A stretch of 64,000 nt of DNA. Origin: an uncultured Chlorobiota bacterium (GTDB taxonomy: Bacteria > Bacteroidota > Ignavibacteria > UBA10030 > UBA6906). The notes beneath the pieces were generated by a model that searched no databases, was not told where the DNA came from, and saw only the letters and a program-made list of their open reading frames with translations. Location: contig CAADGV010000006.1 of assembly GCA_900696645.1 (NCBI GenBank), positions 73,237-137,236 of the forward strand, read 5' to 3'. The translations under genes were made by a program, and so were the position numbers. The number at the start of each line of letters is the position of its first letter. The stretch's first letter is position 1. Positions 50,617 to 60,904 of the stretch are shown one piece after another.

Positions 50617-50775
50617 TTACTGCAGAATCAAATCGTCGATGTCGTATCGCTTGGGCTCGTAGGGCAAATCCCTGCCTGCATCGCTTGGTTGTACAGACGG
50701 CGTTGTGCGTGCCCGAAGCACTTTCTCGGCTGCGACGGCAAGCGTGAATAACGACAATGCAAATAGTGTTTTCAT
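50617..50775 (-). CDS. 52-residue exported peptide (regulon member)
   Basis: A short gene, ATG 50775 to TAA at 50617-50619. The N-terminus MKTLFALSLFTLAVAAEKVL is a signal peptide. The mature part is about 35 residues, with a basic start (RARTTPSVQP) and an acidic end (YDIDDLILQ). AAGGA lies eight bases before the ATG. The strongest evidence that it is real is the promoter: the shared operator at 50828-50843 and a TATATT -10 at 50799-50804, giving a leader of about 17 bases. It is the most downstream member of the regulon. Function unknown; an exported signal or structural peptide is possible. Confidence 0.72.
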   Translation of the reverse strand: MKTLFALSLFTLAVAAEKVLRARTTPSVQPSDAGRDLPYEPKRYDIDDLILQ

Positions 50776-50798: not shown

Positions 50799-50843
50799 AA
50801 TATACGTTGCCAAGCTGCTTTCGGGCATACCGCGTTTGGGGTA
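50799..50843 (-). promoter_or_regulatory. regulon promoter 1 (52-residue peptide)
   Basis: On the minus strand: operator TACCCCAAACGCGGTA (50828-50843), exactly 23 nt, then -10 TATATT (50799-50804). It begins four bases past the stop of the 87-residue gene. It is the weakest operator match of the five but has a perfect -10. Confidence 0.8.
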
Positions 50844-50846
50844 TTT

Positions 50847-51110
50847 TCAGAGCTGCTTCAGACTTGGCATGGCCAACAGCAGGTTCCTGTCGCGCTCATC
50901 CACTTCTACGACATGCCCCGGCCGCTCAAACCAATACCTCTTGCCCGATACAAATCCGTGAACAGTCAGGCTTGAGTTTCCCCTGTACTCGAACAACACA
51001 ACGCTGCGCTTTGGCCCGGCCATGAATCCGGCCTGCCCCGGGATTGTGCCGGATGTTTGTGCTTCTGTGGATTTGTAGAGTTGTTTCCGCTGTTTGCCGC
51101 AACAAGCCAT
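50847..51110 (-). CDS. small hypothetical protein (regulon member)
   Basis: An 87-residue protein. It starts with a Cys pair in a basic peptide (MACCGKQRKQ). The centre (VVLFEYRGNSSLTVHG) and end (GKRYWFERPGHVVEVDERD, LLLAMPSLKQL) are predicted strands and a short helix. AGGAG stands eight bases before the ATG. It begins one base after the stop of the DUF1360 gene, so both share regulon promoter 2. I do not recognise the family; the small barrel-like pattern recalls adaptor proteins of phage-like structures, but that is only an impression. Confidence 0.72.
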   Translation of the reverse strand: MACCGKQRKQLYKSTEAQTSGTIPGQAGFMAGPKRSVVLFEYRGNSSLTVHGFVSGKRYWFERPGHVVEVDERDRNLLLAMPSLKQL

Positions 51111-51111
51111 G

Positions 51112-51393
51112 TCAAGTCTCCTTGTAGATTAGGCGTTGAAGAATAATAGCGCCCGCCGAAAGCGAAAGCCACAGCAACACTCCTTCACTCCAGCTTTCGG
51201 CGAGCCACCAACCGAACGGGATTGCCATCCAGATACTCAAGCAGTAGAAGCAATCCATCAGTTTTCCGAAGAACCCGTTTCCCGCTGCCCGCCGCAGGTG
51301 AATTACCGCATCCCAAGGCCCGTCTTCCGCCTGAAGCAGATGCGTCAGTCGCCAGACGGAAAGAACAGCCAACACAAACCAGTAAAATTCCAT
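51112..51393 (-). CDS. DUF1360 membrane protein (regulon member)
   Basis: A 93-residue protein with two or three membrane helices: 'FYWFVLAVLSVWRLTHLL' and 'GVLLWLSLSAGAIILQRLI' at the ends, plus the DUF1360 signature 'LMDCFYCLSIWMAIPFGWW' in the middle, where the C-x2-C pair faces the membrane border. DUF1360 has no known function. It is driven by regulon promoter 2, whose -10 position lies only five bases before the ATG, so the message may be leaderless. It is tightly coupled to the 87-residue gene behind it. Confidence 0.82.
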   Translation of the reverse strand: MEFYWFVLAVLSVWRLTHLLQAEDGPWDAVIHLRRAAGNGFFGKLMDCFYCLSIWMAIPFGWWLAESWSEGVLLWLSLSAGAIILQRLIYKET

Positions 51394-51398
51394 GTTGC

Positions 51399-51443
51399 AA
51401 AATGTCGATTCCTGTGCTTTGCTACCATACCGTATTCGCGGTA
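51399..51443 (-). promoter_or_regulatory. regulon promoter 2 (DUF1360 operon)
   Basis: On the minus strand: operator TACCGCGAATACGGTA (51428-51443), 23 nt, -10 position CATTTT (51399-51404). The operator is one of the best matches; the -10 is poor, consistent with dependence on an activator. Confidence 0.75.
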
Positions 51444-51462
51444 ATTACATGTCCGAAGGCTG

Positions 51463-51586
51463 GCATGTAGCAGGGGAGGCGATTCGGAGAATCGCCCTAC
51501 AGACATGTACACTTCGGCGCGCCGGGCCCATCCCACCGGAGCCCGACGCGCCGACTCGTCACATCAGGGCGATTCAGGATTGCCCT
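51463..51586. repeat. cluster of three intergenic inverted repeats
   Basis: Three palindromic units in tandem: around GGCGATTCGGAGAATCGCC (51467-51500), TCGGCGCG...CGCGCCGA (51514-51554), and AGGGC...GCCCT (51566-51586). The first and third share 'GGGCGATTC' and 'CCCTACAG', so they are related copies of one repeat. They separate the 432-residue gene from promoter 2 and probably end its transcript. Confidence 0.65.
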
Positions 51587-51590
51587 ACAG

Positions 51591-52889
51591 CTACGCTGGC
51601 TGCTCCTCTTCTTCCGGGCAGGGGCAGCAGCGGTATTCCTGCGATTTCTCCAACAATTCGATCTTCTTTTTCAGAAGTTCGTTTTCGAGATGCCTCCGTT
51701 CGAGATCAAGCTCGATTCCTTTGGCGACGCTGTCTTCACATGTGTCGCATTCGTCGAGACATCCCTTTACGATCATACCCGGAGTCGGCAGCGAACTCTT
51801 GCGCTCGAACGAAAACTCCCGCACGATGCGATCCGAGATCTTGCCGTTCGCCCCTATCAGGCCTTGCTTCTTGAGATTGGCATCGACTTCTTTCAACGCT
51901 TCTTGTCGGAGGTTCTCGGGTATTGGTTGTAATTCTGTCGGGAAACCTTGTCGCCCGGCTGCAAATTTCAGCTTTGCGGCTTCACTTTGTCTCCCGATTT
52001 CCTCTATTTTCAGCCTGTTTTCAGATGTTGCCAGCACGGCATTCGGGATTGCGCTCACGTCGCCGTCAGCAAGGAATGGATTGTTCGTTACTCTTGTATC
52101 CGCTGCCGGGTCAATCACACGCCGCTCGATGGCATTCAGCTTGAAGCGGACAATCTGTGTCTTGTTGATTTGATAGAAGAAGTAGGTTACCGCGTGGCAT
52201 TTGTTCGGATTCGAGAACTCGCGGGAGGCGGATTCAAAATGGTCTTCCGATTCGCCTTCCTGATGCGTACGGCTCGACACCTCGCCGATGGAAAGCGAGC
52301 TGGCGGCGCGGGTGCCCATCTCGGCACGGCGGTCGGAAGCCGAAACATGCTGCGACAATTCCCTGATGAACGTATGCGTTGACGATGCCTCGTACGATCC
52401 GCTGACATCCACCGATGCGCCGCCGAAGAAGCTCTGGATTGCGCCGCTTGTTCCGGCATGCCCCTTTGCCGAGCCACGGTTGCTGCTGCTTGCGCTCGAT
52501 TGGTCACGCACCGAAACATCGGACATGAAGTCGTGCATGCTGGCCATGTAGAACCGCTCTTCCGACGTTTGCTCGTTGCGGTAGCTCAGCTTGCTTTCGC
52601 TGTCGAACGAGAAGCGTGTCCGGCGGTCGGATGTGAATAGCCGGACTTTTTCGCCGGGCAGCAGCGTTGTGCTGTACACCAGATCGCCTAATGCCATCGG
52701 GCCGGGGCAGCGCTCCATTCGTGCGTGAATCGAAACCTCCACCTGAACGGGTCGCCCGCTCGAAACGACTCTCGTCGTGTGCTTCATGCGGTAGTGGAAA
52801 TCCAGCGAGTCGCATGCCGCGTCCGTGTCCAGCTCGGGGCAGCATGTCAATGCGTTGGTAGCGTTAGGGTTTTCGTTTTGGGTTGCCAT
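51591..52889 (-). CDS. unrecognised 432-residue Cys-rich protein with C-terminal coiled coil (regulon member)
   Basis: ATG 52889 has GGAGG five bases upstream. There is no signal peptide or membrane helix. The N-terminal 30 residues carry Cys16, Cys17 and Cys26. Residues 35-125 are a probable beta domain (VQVEVSIHARMERCPGP, LLPGEKVRLFTSDRRTRFS). Residues 130-175 are Ser/Gly/Ala-rich. Residues 175-270 form a second folded part (CHAVTYFFYQINKTQIVRF). Cys377, Cys381 and Cys384 (GCLDECDTC) precede a coiled coil of about 35 residues, and the chain ends CCPCPEEEEQPA. It has eleven cysteines in all. I know no family. Control by regulon promoter 3 ties it to the neighbouring small genes. A self-assembling or metal-binding scaffold is a guess. 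Confidence 0.8.
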   Translation of the reverse strand: MATQNENPNATNALTCCPELDTDAACDSLDFHYRMKHTTRVVSSGRPVQVEVSIHARMERCPGPMALGDLVYSTTLLPGEKVRLFTSDRRTRFSFDSESKLSYRNEQTSEERFYMASMHDFMSDVSVRDQSSASSSNRGSAKGHAGTSGAIQSFFGGASVDVSGSYEASSTHTFIRELSQHVSASDRRAEMGTRAASSLSIGEVSSRTHQEGESEDHFESASREFSNPNKCHAVTYFFYQINKTQIVRFKLNAIERRVIDPAADTRVTNNPFLADGDVSAIPNAVLATSENRLKIEEIGRQSEAAKLKFAAGRQGFPTELQPIPENLRQEALKEVDANLKKQGLIGANGKISDRIVREFSFERKSSLPTPGMIVKGCLDECDTCEDSVAKGIELDLERRHLENELLKKKIELLEKSQEYRCCPCPEEEEQPA

Positions 52890-52943
52890 AAATCCTCCCT
52901 GCAAACCTTGTGATTGATACTGTTGGGTGACTTGTGCGGCAGA

Positions 52944-52988
52944 AATATAGCCTCACGAAGAGGCCTGAACCATGCCGTTAACGCGGCA
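52944..52988 (-). promoter_or_regulatory. regulon promoter 3 (432-residue protein)
   Basis: On the minus strand: operator TGCCGCGTTAACGGCA (52973-52988), 23 nt, -10 TATATT (52944-52949). The operator is fully palindromic and lies just past the stop of the 49-residue gene. Confidence 0.82.
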
Positions 52989-52996
52989 TATTGTGT

Positions 52997-53146
52997 CTAT
53001 TGACGGCTGATAACCAGTTCCTCATCAAGCATGTGGCTGTACGCAATGGCGTACCAGGATTGTATCTGCATCTCCGCTTCGATCAGGATGCTGATAAGTA
53101 CCCGCTCATTGTGCGGAAGATTTGCCGGTAAGAATCGGTTGTACAT
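52997..53146 (-). CDS. 49-residue peptide (regulon member)
   Basis: The ATG at 53146 has AAAGGAG six bases upstream, a strong signal for so small a gene; a longer in-frame extension would run through the promoter. The peptide (MYNRFLPANLPHNERVLISI, then an amphipathic helix with EAEMQIQSWYAIAYSHMLDEE) has a short N-terminal arm and one long helix, suitable for oligomerisation or membrane-surface binding. I recognise no family. It has its own regulon promoter 4 and is followed directly by the operator of promoter 3, so the 432-residue gene can be read from either. Confidence 0.72.
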   Translation of the reverse strand: MYNRFLPANLPHNERVLISILIEAEMQIQSWYAIAYSHMLDEELVISRQ

Positions 53147-53172
53147 GATTGACTCCTTTGTAGCTTTGAGCA

Positions 53173-53217
53173 AATATAGCATGCCGGAGTAGGGAAGAAC
53201 ATACCGCGAGTACGGTA
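53173..53217 (-). promoter_or_regulatory. regulon promoter 4 (49-residue peptide)
   Basis: On the minus strand: operator TACCGTACTCGCGGTA (53202-53217), 23 nt, -10 TATATT (53173-53178). The expected start of transcription is about 20 bases before the Shine-Dalgarno. Confidence 0.85.
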
Positions 53218-53308
53218 AAATGCGGTTTTCGATTGCTTATTTCGGGGGCGTTTGGTAAGCTAAGAGGGGCTTCTTGAGGTTACAACCGAGATTTCGGCAT
53301 CAACAAAC

Positions 53309-53611
53309 ATGTTCTTCCGCATCTGGCAATTCCGGCCGAATCCGCAGAAGATTTCTGAGTTTGTGGATGTGTACGGCCCGAACGGTGAGTGGGCGAGGCT
53401 GTTTCGTCTCGCCAACGGCTTTGTTGAGACCGAGTTGGTGCAGTCAACATCGGATCCGTCGGTTTACCTGACTATTGATCGCTGGACGGATCAAGAATCG
53501 TGGGAGGCGTTCAGGGTTGCATACGCGGTAGATTATACTGCATTGGACAAGAAGTGTGAGTCACTCACGACTGATGAACGTGAGATTGGCAACTTCAGTA
53601 CGACCGGCTAA
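53309..53611 (+). CDS. antibiotic-biosynthesis-monooxygenase-like (ABM) dimeric barrel protein
   Basis: A 100-residue protein with the ferredoxin-like ABM pattern: 'FFRIWQFRPNPQKISEFVDVY' (two parts), 'FVETELVQSTSDPSVYLTIDRW' (two parts), and 'WEAFRVAYAVDYTALD', ending in a helix and a short tail. Such proteins include small oxygenases and many of unknown role; no cofactor residue can be named from sequence. The gene is divergent from the regulon's 49-residue gene. The operator at 53202 is not at an activating distance from a -10 on this strand, so I do not count it as a regulon member. No Shine-Dalgarno is evident before ATG 53309. Confidence 0.72.
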   Translation: MFFRIWQFRPNPQKISEFVDVYGPNGEWARLFRLANGFVETELVQSTSDPSVYLTIDRWTDQESWEAFRVAYAVDYTALDKKCESLTTDEREIGNFSTTG

Positions 53612-53651
53612 GAATTCTAACCATCATATCAAAAAACATAAGGAACCAACC

Positions 53652-56462
53652 ATGAAGTCCATCATCTACTGCTTCATCATTCTCTTTGCGTTGGGCGCGG
53701 CGAATGCCCAGCCCTTGAAGCGCCTCGACCCGCTGTTAGCCGAGAAGCTTCAACATTACGACGAAACGACGCCGATCGACATCATCATTGTTCTTGCCGA
53801 TCAGGTTGACGTGAACGGCATGAGGGATGCGTTCAAAGCAGCGCGGGCTCCGAAGGAAGTCCGGCACGTACAGGTTGTAACTGCCCTCCAACAAAAAGCC
53901 GCCGCAACGCAAGGCCCGATACTGCAACATCTTGCCGTCCGGCAATCCGCCGGAACAGTTGTCAAATACGAGCCGATGTGGATTGTGAATATGGTATTCG
54001 CCTCGGCAACGAAGCAAGCAGTGTACGAGCTGGCTGAGCGGACTGATATTGAGATGGTGTTTGAAGACGGATTGCTGCAGTTGGATGAGCCTGTTGATTC
54101 ATCGCCCGCCTCGCCCTCTTCACCGGGCTCAGCCGAGCCGAACCTCCGTGCAATCAACGCGAACAGGTTGTGGGATCTGGGCTACACTGGGCAAGGTATG
54201 CTTGTCATGAACATTGATACAGGAGTCAACGGCGTGCATCCCGCGCTTGCTCCCCGATGGCGTGGGAATCAGCCCGGCGTGCAGTGGTATCACGCCTGGT
54301 TCGATCAGAAAGTGCCGCCTTCGCCAGTTCCGCTTGACTACGGCTCGACGAAACACGGCTCGCACACAATGGGAATAATGATGGGAATGGATCCGGTTAC
54401 TTCAGATACCATCGGCATTGCGCCGGGCGCATTGTGGATTGCTTCACCGACTATCGACGTGGGATTCAGTCCGCACACAAGCTACACGCTGAAGGCGTTT
54501 CAATGGGCAGCCGATCCGGACAGCAATCTCGGTACTTCCAACGATGTTCCCGACGTCATTTCCAACTCGTATCAGGATCCGAACGTGAGCGCCACCGAGT
54601 GCAGCGGTGCAAGCGGATATTGGGCGGCAGTGGACGCATTGGAGGCGATTGGCACGGCAGTCATCTGGTCTGCGGGTAATGCGGGCTCGGGAGCATCAAC
54701 CATTACCCCCCCGAAGAACCGCATCACGACAAACGTGAACTTCTTCGCTGTCGGAAATTTGAACACCTCAACGGCTCAGCCGTGGGTCATCTCAAGCTCA
54801 AGCAGCCGCGGCCCGTCGAAATGCGACAACACAGTCGTTAAGCCGGAAGTCGTGGCTCCCGGCACAACGATCCGTTCGGCGCTTGCGGGCACTACGTATG
54901 GCAATCTCTCCGGAACGTCGATGGCATCGCCGCATGTTGCGGGAGCTTTGGCTTTGCTGCGCAGCGCAAATCCCGCGTTTACATGTTCGGAGTTGAAGGA
55001 AGTTTTGTATAACACCGCAATCGACTATGGCGTAGTGGGAGAGGATAATATATACGGTAGGGGATTTATCGATTTGTGGGCGGCGTTCCAGGAGATTTCT
55101 GTGGCGAATCCCCGCATCGAAGGAACCGTTACCGGCGCATCGGGTGATACTCTCTCGGACGTCTCCGTCATGAATTTAACCACCGGAATTTCGGTAAAAA
55201 CGAATCAGCGCGGATTCTTCCGGTTTGTTTTGCAGGATACAGGTGTGTACCGGATCCGCTTTATGAAACTTGGTTACTTCACGAAGATTGACACGGTAGA
55301 TGTGCCCGAAGATTCAACCACATACACAAGGCAAATCACTCTCAATCGTACACCGGCACCTTCGGTGAGCGTGAATCCGCCCTCTATCACGCTCAATTTG
55401 AGTCATGGGGATAGCGCAACGCGGACATTGACAGTAAATAACACCGGCCCGGCAGCAAGCCAGCTTGCTTACAGTCTCAGTATTAGCGGCGGTATTGGCG
55501 GACTTCTCGAGGAACCCATCGGCACATCGGCCTCCACATTCAGCGGATCGAATCTCGTACGCGGCAACCGGTATCAAGCCACACGCCGTACGACGCTGAA
55601 GGAAATCAAGTCGTATCACGTTATCAGTGCTGCAACGCAAATGCGTTTTGCGGTGTACGAAAGCAGCACGCCGACCGGATCGTTTACGCGAATCTTCGAC
55701 GGCCCGCCTGTGACGACCGGGACGGGAACCGGCTTTTTCGGCTCGGGACCCATCAGTGTTCAACTTGATTCGGGGAAATACTATCTGATTGGTGCGGGAT
55801 GGTTAGGGAGTGTCACGTACTACAACAGCACTTCGTCCACGACACCTGTCGGGTTTGGCTCGGCGTTGTCCGGCTTTACGGCCTCATATCCGCCGCCGGC
55901 AAGCGTCACCATCAGCAGCACAACCACGGCCTTCTACCGGGGCGCCGTTGTTACAACAAGCGGAAAGTTCATTACCGTGACGAATGCGGAGGGGGATACG
56001 CTGGGAGGCGGCCTCGGCAGTGATCATTCCGTGAAAGTGGTTACGCAATATCTCGATCCGGCAGGAGGGCCCTATTCGGGGCACATCGTGGTGACCTCCA
56101 ACGACACGGCGCAGGCAAATGTGTTGATTCCCGTGTCGGTGGATTTTACGACTGGAGTTCCCGAGCGGGCAGGCATTCCAGCAACGTACGCTATGCATCA
56201 GAACTATCCCAATCCTTTCAATCCGGCGACAACGATCAATTTTGATTTGCCCGAGGCGTCGCATGTTTCACTTGCTGTGTTCGATGTGTTGGGAAGAAAG
56301 GTGGCTGAGATTGCCAACGGGCAGTTCGATGCGGGATATCGTTCGGTTGTGTGGCAGGCGGGGAATCTTGCCAGCGGAGTCTATTTCGTCCGCTTTAATG
56401 TGTCGGATGCAAAGGGGCTCAACAAGTACTCGACGATCGGCAAGCTGATGCTGATGAAGTAA
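53652..56462 (+). CDS. T9SS-secreted subtilisin-like (S8) serine protease
   Basis: Predicted 936 residues from ATG 53652 (AAGGA upstream, signal peptide ending GAANA-QP). Residues 40-145 form an I9-type inhibitor propeptide. The catalytic domain has Asp189 ('NIDTGVNG'), His235 ('KHGSHTMG'), the oxyanion Asn343 ('SAGNAG') and Ser423 ('SGTSMASPHVAGA'). A carboxypeptidase-regulatory-like domain (about 495-570, 'EGTVTGASGDTLSDV'), further beta domains, and a type A sorting domain ('HQNYPNPFNPATTINFDL', 'LASGVYFVRF', 'GKLMLMK') follow. I infer an extracellular protease exported through SprA. A bidirectional terminator follows. Confidence 0.94.
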   Translation: MKSIIYCFIILFALGAANAQPLKRLDPLLAEKLQHYDETTPIDIIIVLADQVDVNGMRDAFKAARAPKEVRHVQVVTALQQKAAATQGPILQHLAVRQSAGTVVKYEPMWIVNMVFASATKQAVYELAERTDIEMVFEDGLLQLDEPVDSSPASPSSPGSAEPNLRAINANRLWDLGYTGQGMLVMNIDTGVNGVHPALAPRWRGNQPGVQWYHAWFDQKVPPSPVPLDYGSTKHGSHTMGIMMGMDPVTSDTIGIAPGALWIASPTIDVGFSPHTSYTLKAFQWAADPDSNLGTSNDVPDVISNSYQDPNVSATECSGASGYWAAVDALEAIGTAVIWSAGNAGSGASTITPPKNRITTNVNFFAVGNLNTSTAQPWVISSSSSRGPSKCDNTVVKPEVVAPGTTIRSALAGTTYGNLSGTSMASPHVAGALALLRSANPAFTCSELKEVLYNTAIDYGVVGEDNIYGRGFIDLWAAFQEISVANPRIEGTVTGASGDTLSDVSVMNLTTGISVKTNQRGFFRFVLQDTGVYRIRFMKLGYFTKIDTVDVPEDSTTYTRQITLNRTPAPSVSVNPPSITLNLSHGDSATRTLTVNNTGPAASQLAYSLSISGGIGGLLEEPIGTSASTFSGSNLVRGNRYQATRRTTLKEIKSYHVISAATQMRFAVYESSTPTGSFTRIFDGPPVTTGTGTGFFGSGPISVQLDSGKYYLIGAGWLGSVTYYNSTSSTTPVGFGSALSGFTASYPPPASVTISSTTTAFYRGAVVTTSGKFITVTNAEGDTLGGGLGSDHSVKVVTQYLDPAGGPYSGHIVVTSNDTAQANVLIPVSVDFTTGVPERAGIPATYAMHQNYPNPFNPATTINFDLPEASHVSLAVFDVLGRKVAEIANGQFDAGYRSVVWQAGNLASGVYFVRFNVSDAKGLNKYSTIGKLMLMK

Positions 56463-56482
56463 CGTGACGTAGTATTCAAAAC

Positions 56483-56511
56483 AAAAAAGCCCGGCTCGCG
56501 TCGGGCTTTTT
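56483..56511. terminator. bidirectional rho-independent terminator
   Basis: AAAAAAGCCCG, loop GCTCGCGT, CGGGCTTTTT. It serves the convergent protease and response-regulator genes. Confidence 0.92.
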
Positions 56512-56514
56512 GTG

Positions 56515-57186
56515 CTACAACAACTTCTCCTTCAACGCCTTTGCCACCGCCTCGCTGCGTGAGTGTACCTGCATTTTCTCGTAGATGTTCTTCATATGTG
56601 TATCAATCGTGTAGTAGGCGAGAAAGAGCTTATCGGCTATTTGCTTTTTGGTGAGGCCGTCAATCAGCAGCTTGAGGATTTCCTTCTCCCGCGTCGTCAG
56701 GCCATAGTCGGCTTCGGGGACGGTGAACTTGGTGAACATCGTCAACACTTTGCGGGCAATCTGGGCGTTCATCGGCGCGCCGCCACCCACGACTTCTTTC
56801 ACTGCCTGCACAATCTCCTCGGGCATGGCATTTTTCAGAAGGTAGCCGTTTGCGCCCGCACAAATGGCATTGAACACTTCCTGATCTCCCTCCTTAATCG
56901 TCAGAATGATAATGTCTGTCGCGGGGGAGATGGCTTTGATACGCTTGACGCCCTCGATGCCGCTCATTCCCGGCAAGCCGATATCCATCAGCACGACTTC
57001 GGGGGCGTAATCGTCCTCAAGCGCTTTCAGTGCATCCTCCGCAGACGAAAACGCCTGCTTGCATTCGAAGCCGGGCGTTTCGCCGAGTAGCGAACAAATT
57101 GCCGTCCGGAAGAAATTATCATCCTCAACAACCCAAAGGCTGATCGTATCAATCGTGTTGATGAACTGCCGTTTTGCTGCCGCCAT
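56515..57186 (-). CDS. NarL/FixJ (LuxR)-family response regulator
   Basis: A 223-residue regulator. The receiver domain has acidic Glu21, Asp22 and Asp23, phospho-acceptor Asp68 ('VVLMDIGLPGMSG'), Thr96 and Lys98. The C-terminal LuxR helix-turn-helix (about 158-215) reads 'LTTREKEILKLLIDGLTKKQIADKL' (two parts) and 'TIDTHMKNIYEKMQVHSRSEA'. NarL/FixJ proteins bind paired 7-bp half-sites spaced by two bases. This is exactly the form of the five operators in 50.8-57.8 kb, so I propose it activates them. It lies 46 bp after the lipoprotein gene and is probably co-transcribed with it from regulon promoter 5. The partner kinase is at 57770. Confidence 0.92.
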   Translation of the reverse strand: MAAAKRQFINTIDTISLWVVEDDNFFRTAICSLLGETPGFECKQAFSSAEDALKALEDDYAPEVVLMDIGLPGMSGIEGVKRIKAISPATDIIILTIKEGDQEVFNAICAGANGYLLKNAMPEEIVQAVKEVVGGGAPMNAQIARKVLTMFTKFTVPEADYGLTTREKEILKLLIDGLTKKQIADKLFLAYYTIDTHMKNIYEKMQVHSRSEAVAKALKEKLL

Positions 57187-57232
57187 GTGAGAACGTCATC
57201 TGTGAAAATCTGTGTAATCGTGATCTGCTTCT

Positions 57233-57697
57233 TTATTCAGTCGGGATTCCGACGTACACGCCTGTTGTGTCGCCACCCTCTGCAAAGTTCGCAACCTCAA
57301 CCCAACGGATGTGTGGCAGGCCGTCTTCATTCTGAACTTGCAGAACGGGCGGTCCGCCCACCGCAACGGTATTGGAGGCAAACGTAAACGTCCGGTGTCG
57401 TTCCGGGGTTTCAAGATTCGACTTTCTCATATTGCCACCGCGTGACGAGTAAATTCCCCACCCGATTGTCGGGGGAAGATTTTCACCTGCCTTGATATTG
57501 AGATGGCCGTTTTCGACAACCACAAGCAACAAACCAATTCCTTTGATCTCCTTGCGGATTGTTGTGTCAGGCAAGACTTGTCGGGTACTCAGCGGGAAGG
57601 TAACCTGAAGCTGACCCGGCACGGGCTGTTGCTGGCCGGGAGTACACCCCTGCAATGCGATTATTGCAATGCCGAGAAGAAGAAACACCGTTTTCAT
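57233..57697 (-). CDS. lipoprotein of unknown function (regulon member)
   Basis: A 154-residue protein. The signal peptide ends in the lipobox ALQGC with acylated Cys18, then a Gln/Pro-rich linker (TPGQQQPVPGQ) and a beta-rich domain ('VTFPLSTRQVLPDTTIRKEI', 'IGLLLVVVENGHLNIKAGE'). AGGAGG precedes ATG 57697. It sits between the sensor kinase and the response regulator and carries its own regulon promoter, whose operator overlaps the kinase stop codon. An accessory ligand-binding or feedback lipoprotein for the kinase is plausible from this position (inference). No family recognised. Confidence 0.78.
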   Translation of the reverse strand: MKTVFLLLGIAIIALQGCTPGQQQPVPGQLQVTFPLSTRQVLPDTTIRKEIKGIGLLLVVVENGHLNIKAGENLPPTIGWGIYSSRGGNMRKSNLETPERHRTFTFASNTVAVGGPPVLQVQNEDGLPHIRWVEVANFAEGGDTTGVYVGIPTE

Positions 57698-57732
57698 AAT
57701 GCCGCCTCCTGAAATTGAAGAAATATGAATTG

Positions 57733-57777
57733 AATGAACAAACTTGGTTCAACAGTTGACATACCGCGTTCACGGTA
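57733..57777 (-). promoter_or_regulatory. regulon promoter 5 (lipoprotein and response regulator)
   Basis: On the minus strand: operator TACCGTGAACGCGGTA (57762-57777), 23 nt, -10 position TTCATT (57733-57738). The operator overlaps the kinase stop codon. The poor -10 fits activator dependence. Confidence 0.75.
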
Positions 57778-60700
57778 TCTTCAGCGCAAGCTCCGTAGTT
57801 GTGCCCTTTCCGACCGAACTCATGATACTGATTTTGCCGCCCAATTTCCCAGCCCGCTTACGCAAATTGTTCAGGCCGTGTCCCTTCTTGATCGCTTCCT
57901 CATCGAACCCGACACCGTTGTCGGAGATCATCAGTGTGAACATCTCCTTCTGAACCTGAAGATCGATAGTGATGTGTGTCGCCTTTGCGTGTTTGATGGT
58001 GTTGTTGAGAATTTCACGGAATATCATAAGCAGGTTGTGCCGGAACTCGGCGCCGAGAATCTTGTTGCCGGCCGCGCCGTTGCTGTTGAACGAGTATTCC
58101 ATGCCGGCAAGCAATTGCGACGCCGTATCCTTCAGCTTTAGGATTGTTGCATCTAACGTATCATGTTCGGGGTTGACGCTCCAGACGATGTTCCGCAGAG
58201 CATCGGCGGCGCTGCGTGCGGCGCTCGTGGCGGTTGCAAGATGGCCTGAATCAGGCGTATTTCCGGGCAATCGCCTACGTACAACGTCGGTAATCATCGC
58301 AATGCTGCTCAGGCTGCTGCCGATGTCATCGTGCAGGTCGCTCGCAATGCGGACACGCATCCGTTCCATCTCCAATAATTTTGCAACACGATAGTTGTAG
58401 ATTGCCGCGCCTATGCCGATCAGCACTGCTGCTGCAAGTAAACGGAACCACCACGTTTGCCACCAGGGCGGATTGATGGTGATGGAGATGCTGCTTCCTT
58501 CAGTGTTCCAAATGCCGTGATTGTTAGAGCCAATCACTCTGAACACGTACGTTCCCGGCTGCAAACCGGGGTAGCTTGCATAGCGCCGCGTTCCCGACTT
58601 CACCCATTCGGCATCAAGACCCTCCATCTTGTATGCGTAGAGATTTCTTGAAGGATTGGTATAGTCGAGGGAGGAGATAACGAACGAAAGAAAATTCTCG
58701 TTATAGCCCAGCGTGAAAGAAGGATTCCGTTCGCCCGCCGAGAACGCGGCATACGGGTTCTCGAAGATGTTGAATCCCGAAACCACAACTGGCGGCGGAT
58801 TATCATTCTCTATGAGACTATCAGGATGAAAATAGCTGAGTCCGTATTGACTTCCAATGTAAAATGTGCCGTCGGCGCCGGTGAAATGTGCATCAGTAAA
58901 ATCGTCGCTCAGAAATCCGTCATTCGAATCGAAGGTGACGAACGTTCTGCGTTGAGGGTTAAACTTGCAGATGCCGCGGGTTGTTACAAGCCACAGATTG
59001 CCCCGCTTGTCCTTCATAATAGTACGAATGTAATCCGAAGGCAGCCCGTCCGTTCGAAGGAGCCGCTCGAACCGTCCGCTTGCCGCATCGAAGCGATTCA
59101 GCCCGCCTGCTGTTCCAATCCAGATATTCCCGGCTGCATCTTCTTCAATCGCATACACACGATTGTTCGAGATGCTATGCAGATTTGCGGGATTGTTGAG
59201 ATAACGCGTGAACTTCATCGTTGTTCGTTTGAGGGAATTCAGTCCGCCCCCTTCGGTACCAATCCAAAGAGTTCCTCTGCTATCTTCAAACAACGCGCTC
59301 AGCCGGTCGGTGCTGAGACTGGCTGAATCCGCGGGGTTGTGCTTGAACTGGCGGAGCTCGCCCGTTGCAGGATTGAGCATGTTCAAGCCGCCGGAATGCA
59401 TTCCATCAGCGGAAGTGGCAATCCACAACATCCCGTCCGCAGTTTCGAGTATTTCGTCAATGGCATTGCTGCTGATGGAATTGCGCCGATCATCCGCATG
59501 AAATACAGTGAAACGGTTTGCCGATCTATCAAGTCTCGCCAATCCGCTGCGCGCCGTGCCGACCCACAAGTTGCCGCTTCGGTCAACCCGAACTGCGCTC
59601 ACATCGTCCTCGGGAAGAGTGTTGGCAGTTGCGGCATTGTAGCGATAGCGGGAAGTGACGCCGGTTTGAAGGTTCACAGCATTCAAGCCGCCACCGAACG
59701 TTCCGACCCAGAGGGTCCCCGTATTATCCTCGGTGACAGACCACACGGCTCCCTTGCTTAGGGTGTTTACGTTCGCCGGATTATGACGAAGGTGGCGGAT
59801 TGCCTGTTGCCGTTCAGCATTCAGTTTGGAGACACCTCCGCCCTCCGTTCCAATCCAGAGTCCGCCCGTCCTGTCCGTAAACATGCTGCGAATAATGTCG
59901 CCGCTCAGGCTTGTACTTCGCGCCGGGTCTGCAACGAACCGCTCGAACGTCGATTGTGCGGGATCGAAACGGAAGACGCCCATTCCCTGTGTGCCAATCC
60001 AAAAAGACGGTCTCATGCCTGTGTACGCTTCGCCCATTGCATAAACGGGAAACATTGCCGGGGATGAAGAGGGAGAACGCGGCGGATAAAATCGCGTAAA
60101 CGTTCCGCTTGCCTCTTCGAACTTGTTGAGTCCGTTGTCGGTGCCAATCCAGACCCTTCCTACGGCATCGACAAAAATGGATTTCACACCGTTGTTGCTG
60201 AGAGATGTCGGATTGGCGGGATTGTGAAGATAGCGGGTAAAGGAGGTTCTTGCGCGGTCGAGTACCGTCACACCGCCGCTTGCCGTTCCTATCCAGAGTC
60301 TTCCGCTTCTGTCCTCGGCAAGTGAACGGATATTATTGTCGCTGATGCTGTTTGCATTCAGCGAGTCAAACGTGAAGCGCGTGAAGCGTCCCGTTTGCGG
60401 ATTGAAGCGGCTCAGCCCGTCGAACCACGTGCCGATCCAGATCACTTCCGAAGCGTCCCGGACAATGGATTTGATCTGATTGGAAGCAATGCTGTTCGGA
60501 TCGTCAGGATCATGAACGAACCGCTGTACTTTTTCTGTCGAGAGAGAGAGCCTGCTCAATCCTCCGCTGAATGTTCCGATCCACAGATTGTCATTCCCGT
60601 CCTCGCAAAGTGCCAGCACGGCGTCGTCGGAGAGGGAGTTGGTGTCGGCGGGATTGTGCTTGTAGGGAGTGAATTCGTAACCGTCGAATCGTGCGAGCCC

Positions 60701-60904
60701 GCCGGATGTGCCGAACCAGATGAAGCCGCGGGAGTCTTGCAGAATTGCGTTCACATCGGAATTGGGAAGTCCGTGCTCGACGGAATACCGGTGAAACGTT
60801 TGTGCAGAAAGAAGAGACGAGCCGAACAGCAGCCACATGACGATCCATCCGCGCCGCAATCCCCCCGGCAGCCGCCCCCCGCGACGGATAATCAGTTCTT
60901 TCAC
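57770..60904 (-). CDS. two-component sensor histidine kinase with Reg_prop beta-propeller sensor
   Basis: A 1044-residue membrane kinase. A signal peptide/anchor (IVMWLLFGSSLLSAQ) leads to about 700 residues of two-component-regulator propeller repeats, with the recurrent unit 'WIGTxxGGL' and 'DRSGxLWVGT', then a Y_Y_Y domain ('PGTYVFRVIGSNNHGIWN'). One membrane helix (about 818-838) is followed by a HisKA_3 dimerisation domain with His858 ('DLHDDIGSSLSSI') and a HATPase domain ('NNTIKHAKATHITIDL', 'ISDNGVGFDEEAIKKGHGLNNL'). HisKA_3 kinases signal to NarL-type regulators such as the one encoded at 56515. In Bacteroidota such propellers often sense polysaccharide fragments, but here no glycan genes are nearby. 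Confidence 0.93.
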   Translation of the reverse strand: MKELIIRRGGRLPGGLRRGWIVMWLLFGSSLLSAQTFHRYSVEHGLPNSDVNAILQDSRGFIWFGTSGGLARFDGYEFTPYKHNPADTNSLSDDAVLALCEDGNDNLWIGTFSGGLSRLSLSTEKVQRFVHDPDDPNSIASNQIKSIVRDASEVIWIGTWFDGLSRFNPQTGRFTRFTFDSLNANSISDNNIRSLAEDRSGRLWIGTASGGVTVLDRARTSFTRYLHNPANPTSLSNNGVKSIFVDAVGRVWIGTDNGLNKFEEASGTFTRFYPPRSPSSSPAMFPVYAMGEAYTGMRPSFWIGTQGMGVFRFDPAQSTFERFVADPARSTSLSGDIIRSMFTDRTGGLWIGTEGGGVSKLNAERQQAIRHLRHNPANVNTLSKGAVWSVTEDNTGTLWVGTFGGGLNAVNLQTGVTSRYRYNAATANTLPEDDVSAVRVDRSGNLWVGTARSGLARLDRSANRFTVFHADDRRNSISSNAIDEILETADGMLWIATSADGMHSGGLNMLNPATGELRQFKHNPADSASLSTDRLSALFEDSRGTLWIGTEGGGLNSLKRTTMKFTRYLNNPANLHSISNNRVYAIEEDAAGNIWIGTAGGLNRFDAASGRFERLLRTDGLPSDYIRTIMKDKRGNLWLVTTRGICKFNPQRRTFVTFDSNDGFLSDDFTDAHFTGADGTFYIGSQYGLSYFHPDSLIENDNPPPVVVSGFNIFENPYAAFSAGERNPSFTLGYNENFLSFVISSLDYTNPSRNLYAYKMEGLDAEWVKSGTRRYASYPGLQPGTYVFRVIGSNNHGIWNTEGSSISITINPPWWQTWWFRLLAAAVLIGIGAAIYNYRVAKLLEMERMRVRIASDLHDDIGSSLSSIAMITDVVRRRLPGNTPDSGHLATATSAARSAADALRNIVWSVNPEHDTLDATILKLKDTASQLLAGMEYSFNSNGAAGNKILGAEFRHNLLMIFREILNNTIKHAKATHITIDLQVQKEMFTLMISDNGVGFDEEAIKKGHGLNNLRKRAGKLGGKISIMSSVGKGTTTELALKIP

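Follow-up and report, generated by a model that had tools for sequence, protein, structure and literature searches.

The half-site consensus of NarL is TACYYMT. Bacteroides hybrid two-component systems share a sensor architecture of propeller repeats, a Y_Y_Y domain and a kinase. These hybrids combine sensor and regulator in one protein (PMC11253607). In E. coli, a single 7-2-7 site immediately 5' of the -35 element suffices for NarL to activate yeaR-yoaG; NarL also activates ogt, where the NarL II site abuts the -35 element, centred at -44.5 (PMC7419079). NarL activates at only 11 of the 26 regulatory regions listed for it (PMC7419079).

The window analysed here is the whole stretch of 64,000 nucleotides from an uncultured Chlorobiota bacterium. 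Its minus strand carries five palindromes (s1 to s5) of 7-bp inverted half-sites with a 2-bp gap, and each is followed exactly 23 nt 3' by a hexamer (Table 1). The first-pass annotation had claimed these palindromes, the 23-nt distance and the division into three perfect TATATT hexamers (s1, s3, s4) and two weak ones (s2, s5), and all of this was reproduced when the sites were re-read from the sequence and recomputed. The dinucleotide TG, absent from that annotation, lies directly 3' of the operator at all five sites; because it follows all five palindromes, the element of operator plus TG is asymmetric and has a direction. The sites abut the -35 region at this fixed distance from the hexamer. 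In relatives GGTA is usually followed by TTG, a -35-like start, compared with which the TG of the window promoters is a poorer one, and a -35 consensus is lacking in the window. At s1 to s4 and in most relatives, the palindrome stops where the -35 region begins and leaves the -10 and the start uncovered, with the spacing fixed at 23-24 nt. The spacers between operator and -10 are mutually unrelated among the window promoters. At s5 there is no convincing -10 at 23 nt, and promoter 5 is weak. It is noted that the DUF1360 mRNA would be leaderless, starting at or adjoining the ATG (window 51393-51404), if the s2 hexamer is its -10.

Table 1. Predicted operators, associated hexamers and genes in the window
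Feature	Position	Strand	Remarks
52-aa ORF, unit 1	50617..50775	minus	N-terminal hydrophobic stretch; ORF shared with G001
-10 TATATT of s1	50799..50804	minus	6/6 kept in sister species G001
Operator s1	50828..50843 (50843-50828)	minus	TACCCCAAACGCGGTA = TACCCCA-AA-CGCGGTA; 3 nt 3' of the 87-aa ORF stop
87-aa ORF, unit 2	50847..51110	minus	no family match
DUF1360 protein, 93 aa, unit 2	51112..51393	minus	Pfam PF07098
Weak -10 CATTTT of s2	51399..51404	minus	5 nt 5' of ATG
Operator s2	51428..51443 (51443-51428)	minus	TACCGCGAATACGGTA = TACCGCG-AA-TACGGTA
432/437-aa protein, unit 3	51591..52904	minus	likely ATG start 52889; no family match
-10 TATATT of s3	52944..52949	minus	6/6 in G001
Operator s3	52973..52988 (52988-52973)	minus	TGCCGCGTTAACGGCA = TGCCGCG-TT-AACGGCA; 8 nt 3' of the 49-aa ORF stop
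49-aa ORF, unit 4	52997..53146	minus	ORF shared with G001
-10 TATATT of s4	53173..53178	minus	read directly, recomputed
Operator s4	53202..53217 (53217-53202)	minus	TACCGTACTCGCGGTA = TACCGTA-CT-CGCGGTA; 0 mismatches to the 45-nt pattern
NarL/LuxR-type response regulator	56515..57186	minus	Response_reg + GerE; recognition helix TIDTHMKNIY; D195 at the NarL Lys188 position
154-aa putative lipoprotein, unit 5	57233..57697	minus	co-directional with regulator
Weak hexamer TTCATT of s5	57733..57738	minus	23 nt from s5; not conserved in G001
Operator s5	57762..57777 (57777-57762)	minus	TACCGTGAACGCGGTA = TACCGTG-AA-CGCGGTA; overlaps kinase gene 3' end
Sensor kinase	57770..60904	minus	Reg_prop propellers, Y_Y_Y, HisKA_3 (PF07730), HATPase_c (PF02518)

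Conservation of the operators in relatives had been proposed as a check, and G001, the sister species, has kept the sites. Four of the five are present there within three mismatches, and the counterpart of s5 is recognisable at the same junction as TACCGTAATCGCGGTA. Operator plus TG is identical between the two species (18/18) at s1, s2 and s4, in spite of a diverged upstream 60 nt at s2 and with only 13 of 21 spacer positions shared at s4. The G001 copy of s3, TACCGTATCGGCGGCA, is nearer to the motif than the window copy, and most of the bases altered in G001 at s3 and s5 still fit the motif. The spacer of s5 is, like its hexamer, not conserved.

The window has 30 matches to TACCG-N6-CGGTA when two mismatches are allowed; shuffled sequences have 15.2 on average and at most 25. 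The palindrome alone (up to one mismatch) was discarded as a genome-wide criterion, with 15 places against 13 in the reversed control. Since the palindrome alone is not enriched, the specificity is carried by the -10 spacing and the TG. A 45-nt pattern joining operator, TG, spacing and -10 (TACCGYRNNYRCGGTATG-N21-TATATT, up to three mismatches allowed) matches eight places in the 4.2-Mb genome and none in its reversed control; five of these eight matches are not independent, because those five sites define the pattern, and three (the C12, C36 and C19 sites) are new beyond the window. The C12 and C36 sites recur in G001. In relatives, the same pattern is found at 29 places outside the window's genome (G000), against 7 in controls. 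The 23-nt step, for which a genome-wide scan had been suggested, is retained far above control. The window's own genome was covered by pattern searches and selected stretches. Two more palindromes of the same type, each followed by TTGAC and a poor -10 hexamer, were seen in contig C22 (L025:6927 and L025:10205, both minus); they could be extra regulon members or belong to another regulator.

Within the order, one promoter layout is seen repeatedly. In 98 of its genomes, TACC-N8-GGTATTG-N20-TAnnnT has 74 exact matches, compared to 3 in the reversed control. Outside the order, matches in the class still exceed the control, with a part resembling repeated unrelated sequence; many class-wide matches of family f17 are by appearance one repeated non-palindromic sequence and were not counted. 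In a genus of family f6 (g38; G049, G084), TACCGGATTTCCGGTATTG sites form a larger set that resembles a regulon, with as many as 10 in a genome (e.g. L241:9842, L250:1639); many have no regulator gene in the stretch examined, and others lie 33 nt from a TVDTH regulator. In family f2, related operators (TACCTCA-N2-TGAGGTATTGAC or similar, then TATATT) were found at L075:7824, 9241 and 10661, L076:8711 (minus) and L078:9123 (minus). At L075:10661, L076 and L078 the operator is followed by conserved non-coding sequence (around GATCGCTCGGGAGGCGGA) that lies within a terminator-like hairpin, AGCCAAAGAG...CTCTTTGGCTTTT; this is possibly an operator-driven small RNA, and it has no Rfam match.

The regulator of the window has a receiver domain (PF00072, 8.9e-22) and a C-terminal GerE helix-turn-helix (PF00196, 1.7e-19) in Pfam. 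It aligns over its full length with VraR and NarL, NarL 1a04 being its second-best PDB match. The HisKA_3 kinase lies beside it, and this adjacency recurs in relatives. As with s5 in the window, a palindrome is present at the kinase/regulator junction in G001, G006, G011, G017, G019 and G045; in G013, G017, G019 and G046 one lies just 3' of the regulator. Around regulators retrieved by protein or alignment query, blind to DNA motifs (110 loci), TACC-N8-GGTA occurs 16 times, against a first-order Markov expectation of 0.2, and gaps other than 8 give 0-4 palindromes. Twelve of these 16 palindromes, sampled regardless of any -10, have TAnnnT 23-24 nt downstream on the regulator's strand (Markov expectation 0.0). 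The enrichment and the junction placement across genera make a much stronger tie between operator and regulator than nearness in one genome could. The assignment of the 7-2-7 operators to the regulator of the same block, made originally from one sequence, is backed by this cross-genus linkage and by a match between recognition helix and operator. It should be mentioned that two close homologues of the regulator (G000:C24 and G001:C23, helix TIDMHMRG) have no such palindrome nearby.

The match concerns base 5 of the half-site. Helices and half-sites pair as T[VI]DTH with TACCG, TVHTH or TVHSH with TACCC, TVQSH with TACCA and TVRTH with TACCT. In the alignment, the residue in question stands opposite the leading Lys of STVKVHVKH in NarL, at NarL position 188. 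Across 36 regulators, the pairing is uniform for Asp (G, 17/17), His (C, 5/5) and Gln (A, 4/4), and mixed for Asn, Lys and Glu. Residue and base 5 share 1.59 bits of mutual information (permutation p = 5e-5, 21 clusters at <70% identity); shared ancestry accounts for part of the support for the relation, the tree giving 2-4 independent pairs, none contrary and too few for significance. Base 6 is not significantly related to the helix residue (p = 0.057). T[IV]DTHx[KR] has a single coding match in the window's genome, which is this regulator, and this sole occurrence points to it as the reader of TACCG. At L278:1393, TACCGAT-AA-TTCGGTA with TACATT at 23 nt lies at a kinase gene start whose regulator has a TIDTH helix; it fits the Asp-G pairing and stands outside the statistics. 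We tentatively propose, holding it somewhat more doubtful than probable, that, where a NarL-type regulator is paired with a Reg_prop kinase, its residue at NarL 188 would set base 5 (Asp-G, His-C, Gln/Asn-A, Arg-T) within a fixed frame of TACC...GGTA, 8-bp gap and 23-24 nt step to the -10. If true, such a code could be read directly: a single residue could predict the regulon of a regulator of this class that has not been studied, and a single substitution could shift the specificity. With the layout fixed and base 5 variable, the DNA specificity of a large family of regulators can be tested directly. This possible relation, seen across relatives, appears, like the gene set itself, not to have been described before, and it is the part most worth following.

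The putative targets are mostly small or unclassified proteins. Their tandem order is s4, 49-aa ORF, s3, 432-aa protein, s2, DUF1360 protein and 87-aa ORF, s1, 52-aa ORF; s5 precedes the lipoprotein gene and then the regulator gene. Apart from DUF1360, no family was found for the target proteins in Pfam, NCBIfam or PADLOC, and PHROGs returned only phrog_781, of unknown function, for the DUF1360 protein. Among 60 relatives, the 432-aa protein occurs in G000 and G001 alone, and it has no plasmid relative that we could find; its ends are Cys-rich and its middle Ser-rich, and an AlphaFold model from two-sequence input reached a pLDDT of 33, too low to be of use. Rfam gave no match over 44-64 kb of the window or in five relative loci. 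The gene downstream of the C12 site encodes a 367-aa lipoprotein that carries an HExxH protease-like motif; the gene downstream of the C36 site has a counterpart in G001 with a Por_Secre_tail at its end; and the C19 site lies near an AraC-type gene. The sensor propeller together with lipoprotein and secreted targets suggests a stimulus at the cell surface. The earlier proposal of a five-unit regulon is supported; it is weaker at s5, whose -10 is poor and unconserved, and at least two further members lie outside the block.

Considering the sites, their geometry and conservation, the regulator-family linkage and the agreement of helix and operator, all obtained by computation, we regard it as highly probable that the five palindromes are operators of the regulator at 56515-57186, phosphorylated by the adjoining Reg_prop/Y_Y_Y/HisKA_3 kinase, and that it activates the five units and the C12 and C36 genes. 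A small gene set is thus very probably switched on by the kinase-regulator pair. Binding, activation rather than repression, dependence on phosphorylation and the signal are what we infer. The sensor kinase would phosphorylate the adjacent regulator, whose dimer would bind the 7-2-7 repeat, centred near -43 and directly 5' of a poor -35, and recruit RNA polymerase to the -10 located 23 nt downstream. The four tandem units would be turned on, as would the lipoprotein-regulator transcript through s5 and the unlinked genes for the HExxH lipoprotein (C12) and a T9SS-sorted secreted protein (C36). The same operators and regulator could instead serve repression or dual action, for example with the regulator repressing its own transcript at s5 and activating the others. 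This is unlikely, though the lack of a clear, conserved -10 at 23 nt from s5 would suit it, as would the record of NarL itself at its listed regions. Against it are the yeaR/ogt activator geometry of s1 to s4 and most relatives, with -10 and start uncovered, and the lack of a -35 consensus, a lack to be expected where promoters depend on an activator.

That a different DNA-binding protein binds the palindromes, with the regulator nearby incidentally, we consider very improbable. Many order-wide matches do have no regulator within a few kb around the palindrome, and the operator role is a prediction, but an incidental neighbour would hardly explain 16 palindromes where 0.2 are expected around regulators fetched by protein, the way in which separate genera repeat the position at the kinase/regulator junction, or the agreement of the recognition-helix residue with base 5. 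Least probable of all is a chance or duplicated promoter motif, in which local duplication gave rise to the four tandem units and left the operators behind as relics. Units 1 to 4 are indeed adjacent and co-directional, and in G026 a tandem gene array contains a related operator three times; however, the four units encode unrelated proteins behind unrelated spacers, the G001 operators are intact where spacers and flanks have changed, and the unlinked C12 and C36 sites are conserved.

Activation by the window regulator, the reading we prefer, links an unstudied two-component system of a poorly known Bacteroidota-related lineage, with Ignavibacteria among its named relatives, to its targets from sequence alone; no paper on this regulon was found in the open-access literature. 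VraR, DevR (DosR) and DesR, the nearest solved structures by sequence besides NarL, have operators and targets that differ from those of the window, and they have no Reg_prop kinase. The window kinase has the same sensor architecture as the Bacteroides Reg_prop/Y_Y_Y hybrids; unlike those hybrids, the window has two separate proteins for kinase and regulator, and a LuxR/GerE domain serves as output. The closest likeness is to NarL at yeaR and ogt, with a 7-2-7 inverted repeat abutting the -35 and a regulator of the same family (Response_reg and GerE). The window promoters share this layout, with the operator centre near -43 as in the first-pass annotation. From the layout and the shared family, the most likely mechanism is that the phosphorylated regulator acts as a class II activator and also regulates its own transcript at s5. 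In contrast to NarL, the window half-site is mostly TACCGYR, Asp replaces Lys at the NarL 188 position, the kinase has Reg_prop and Y_Y_Y domains, the targets show no evident nitrate link, and the autoregulatory site lies inside the kinase/regulator junction. Base 5 of the window half-sites is G, which departs from the NarL consensus; the window site would therefore work like a NarL site and yet not be NarL's. The regulon has new content and is of an ordinary kind, belonging to a class of switch that is already known.
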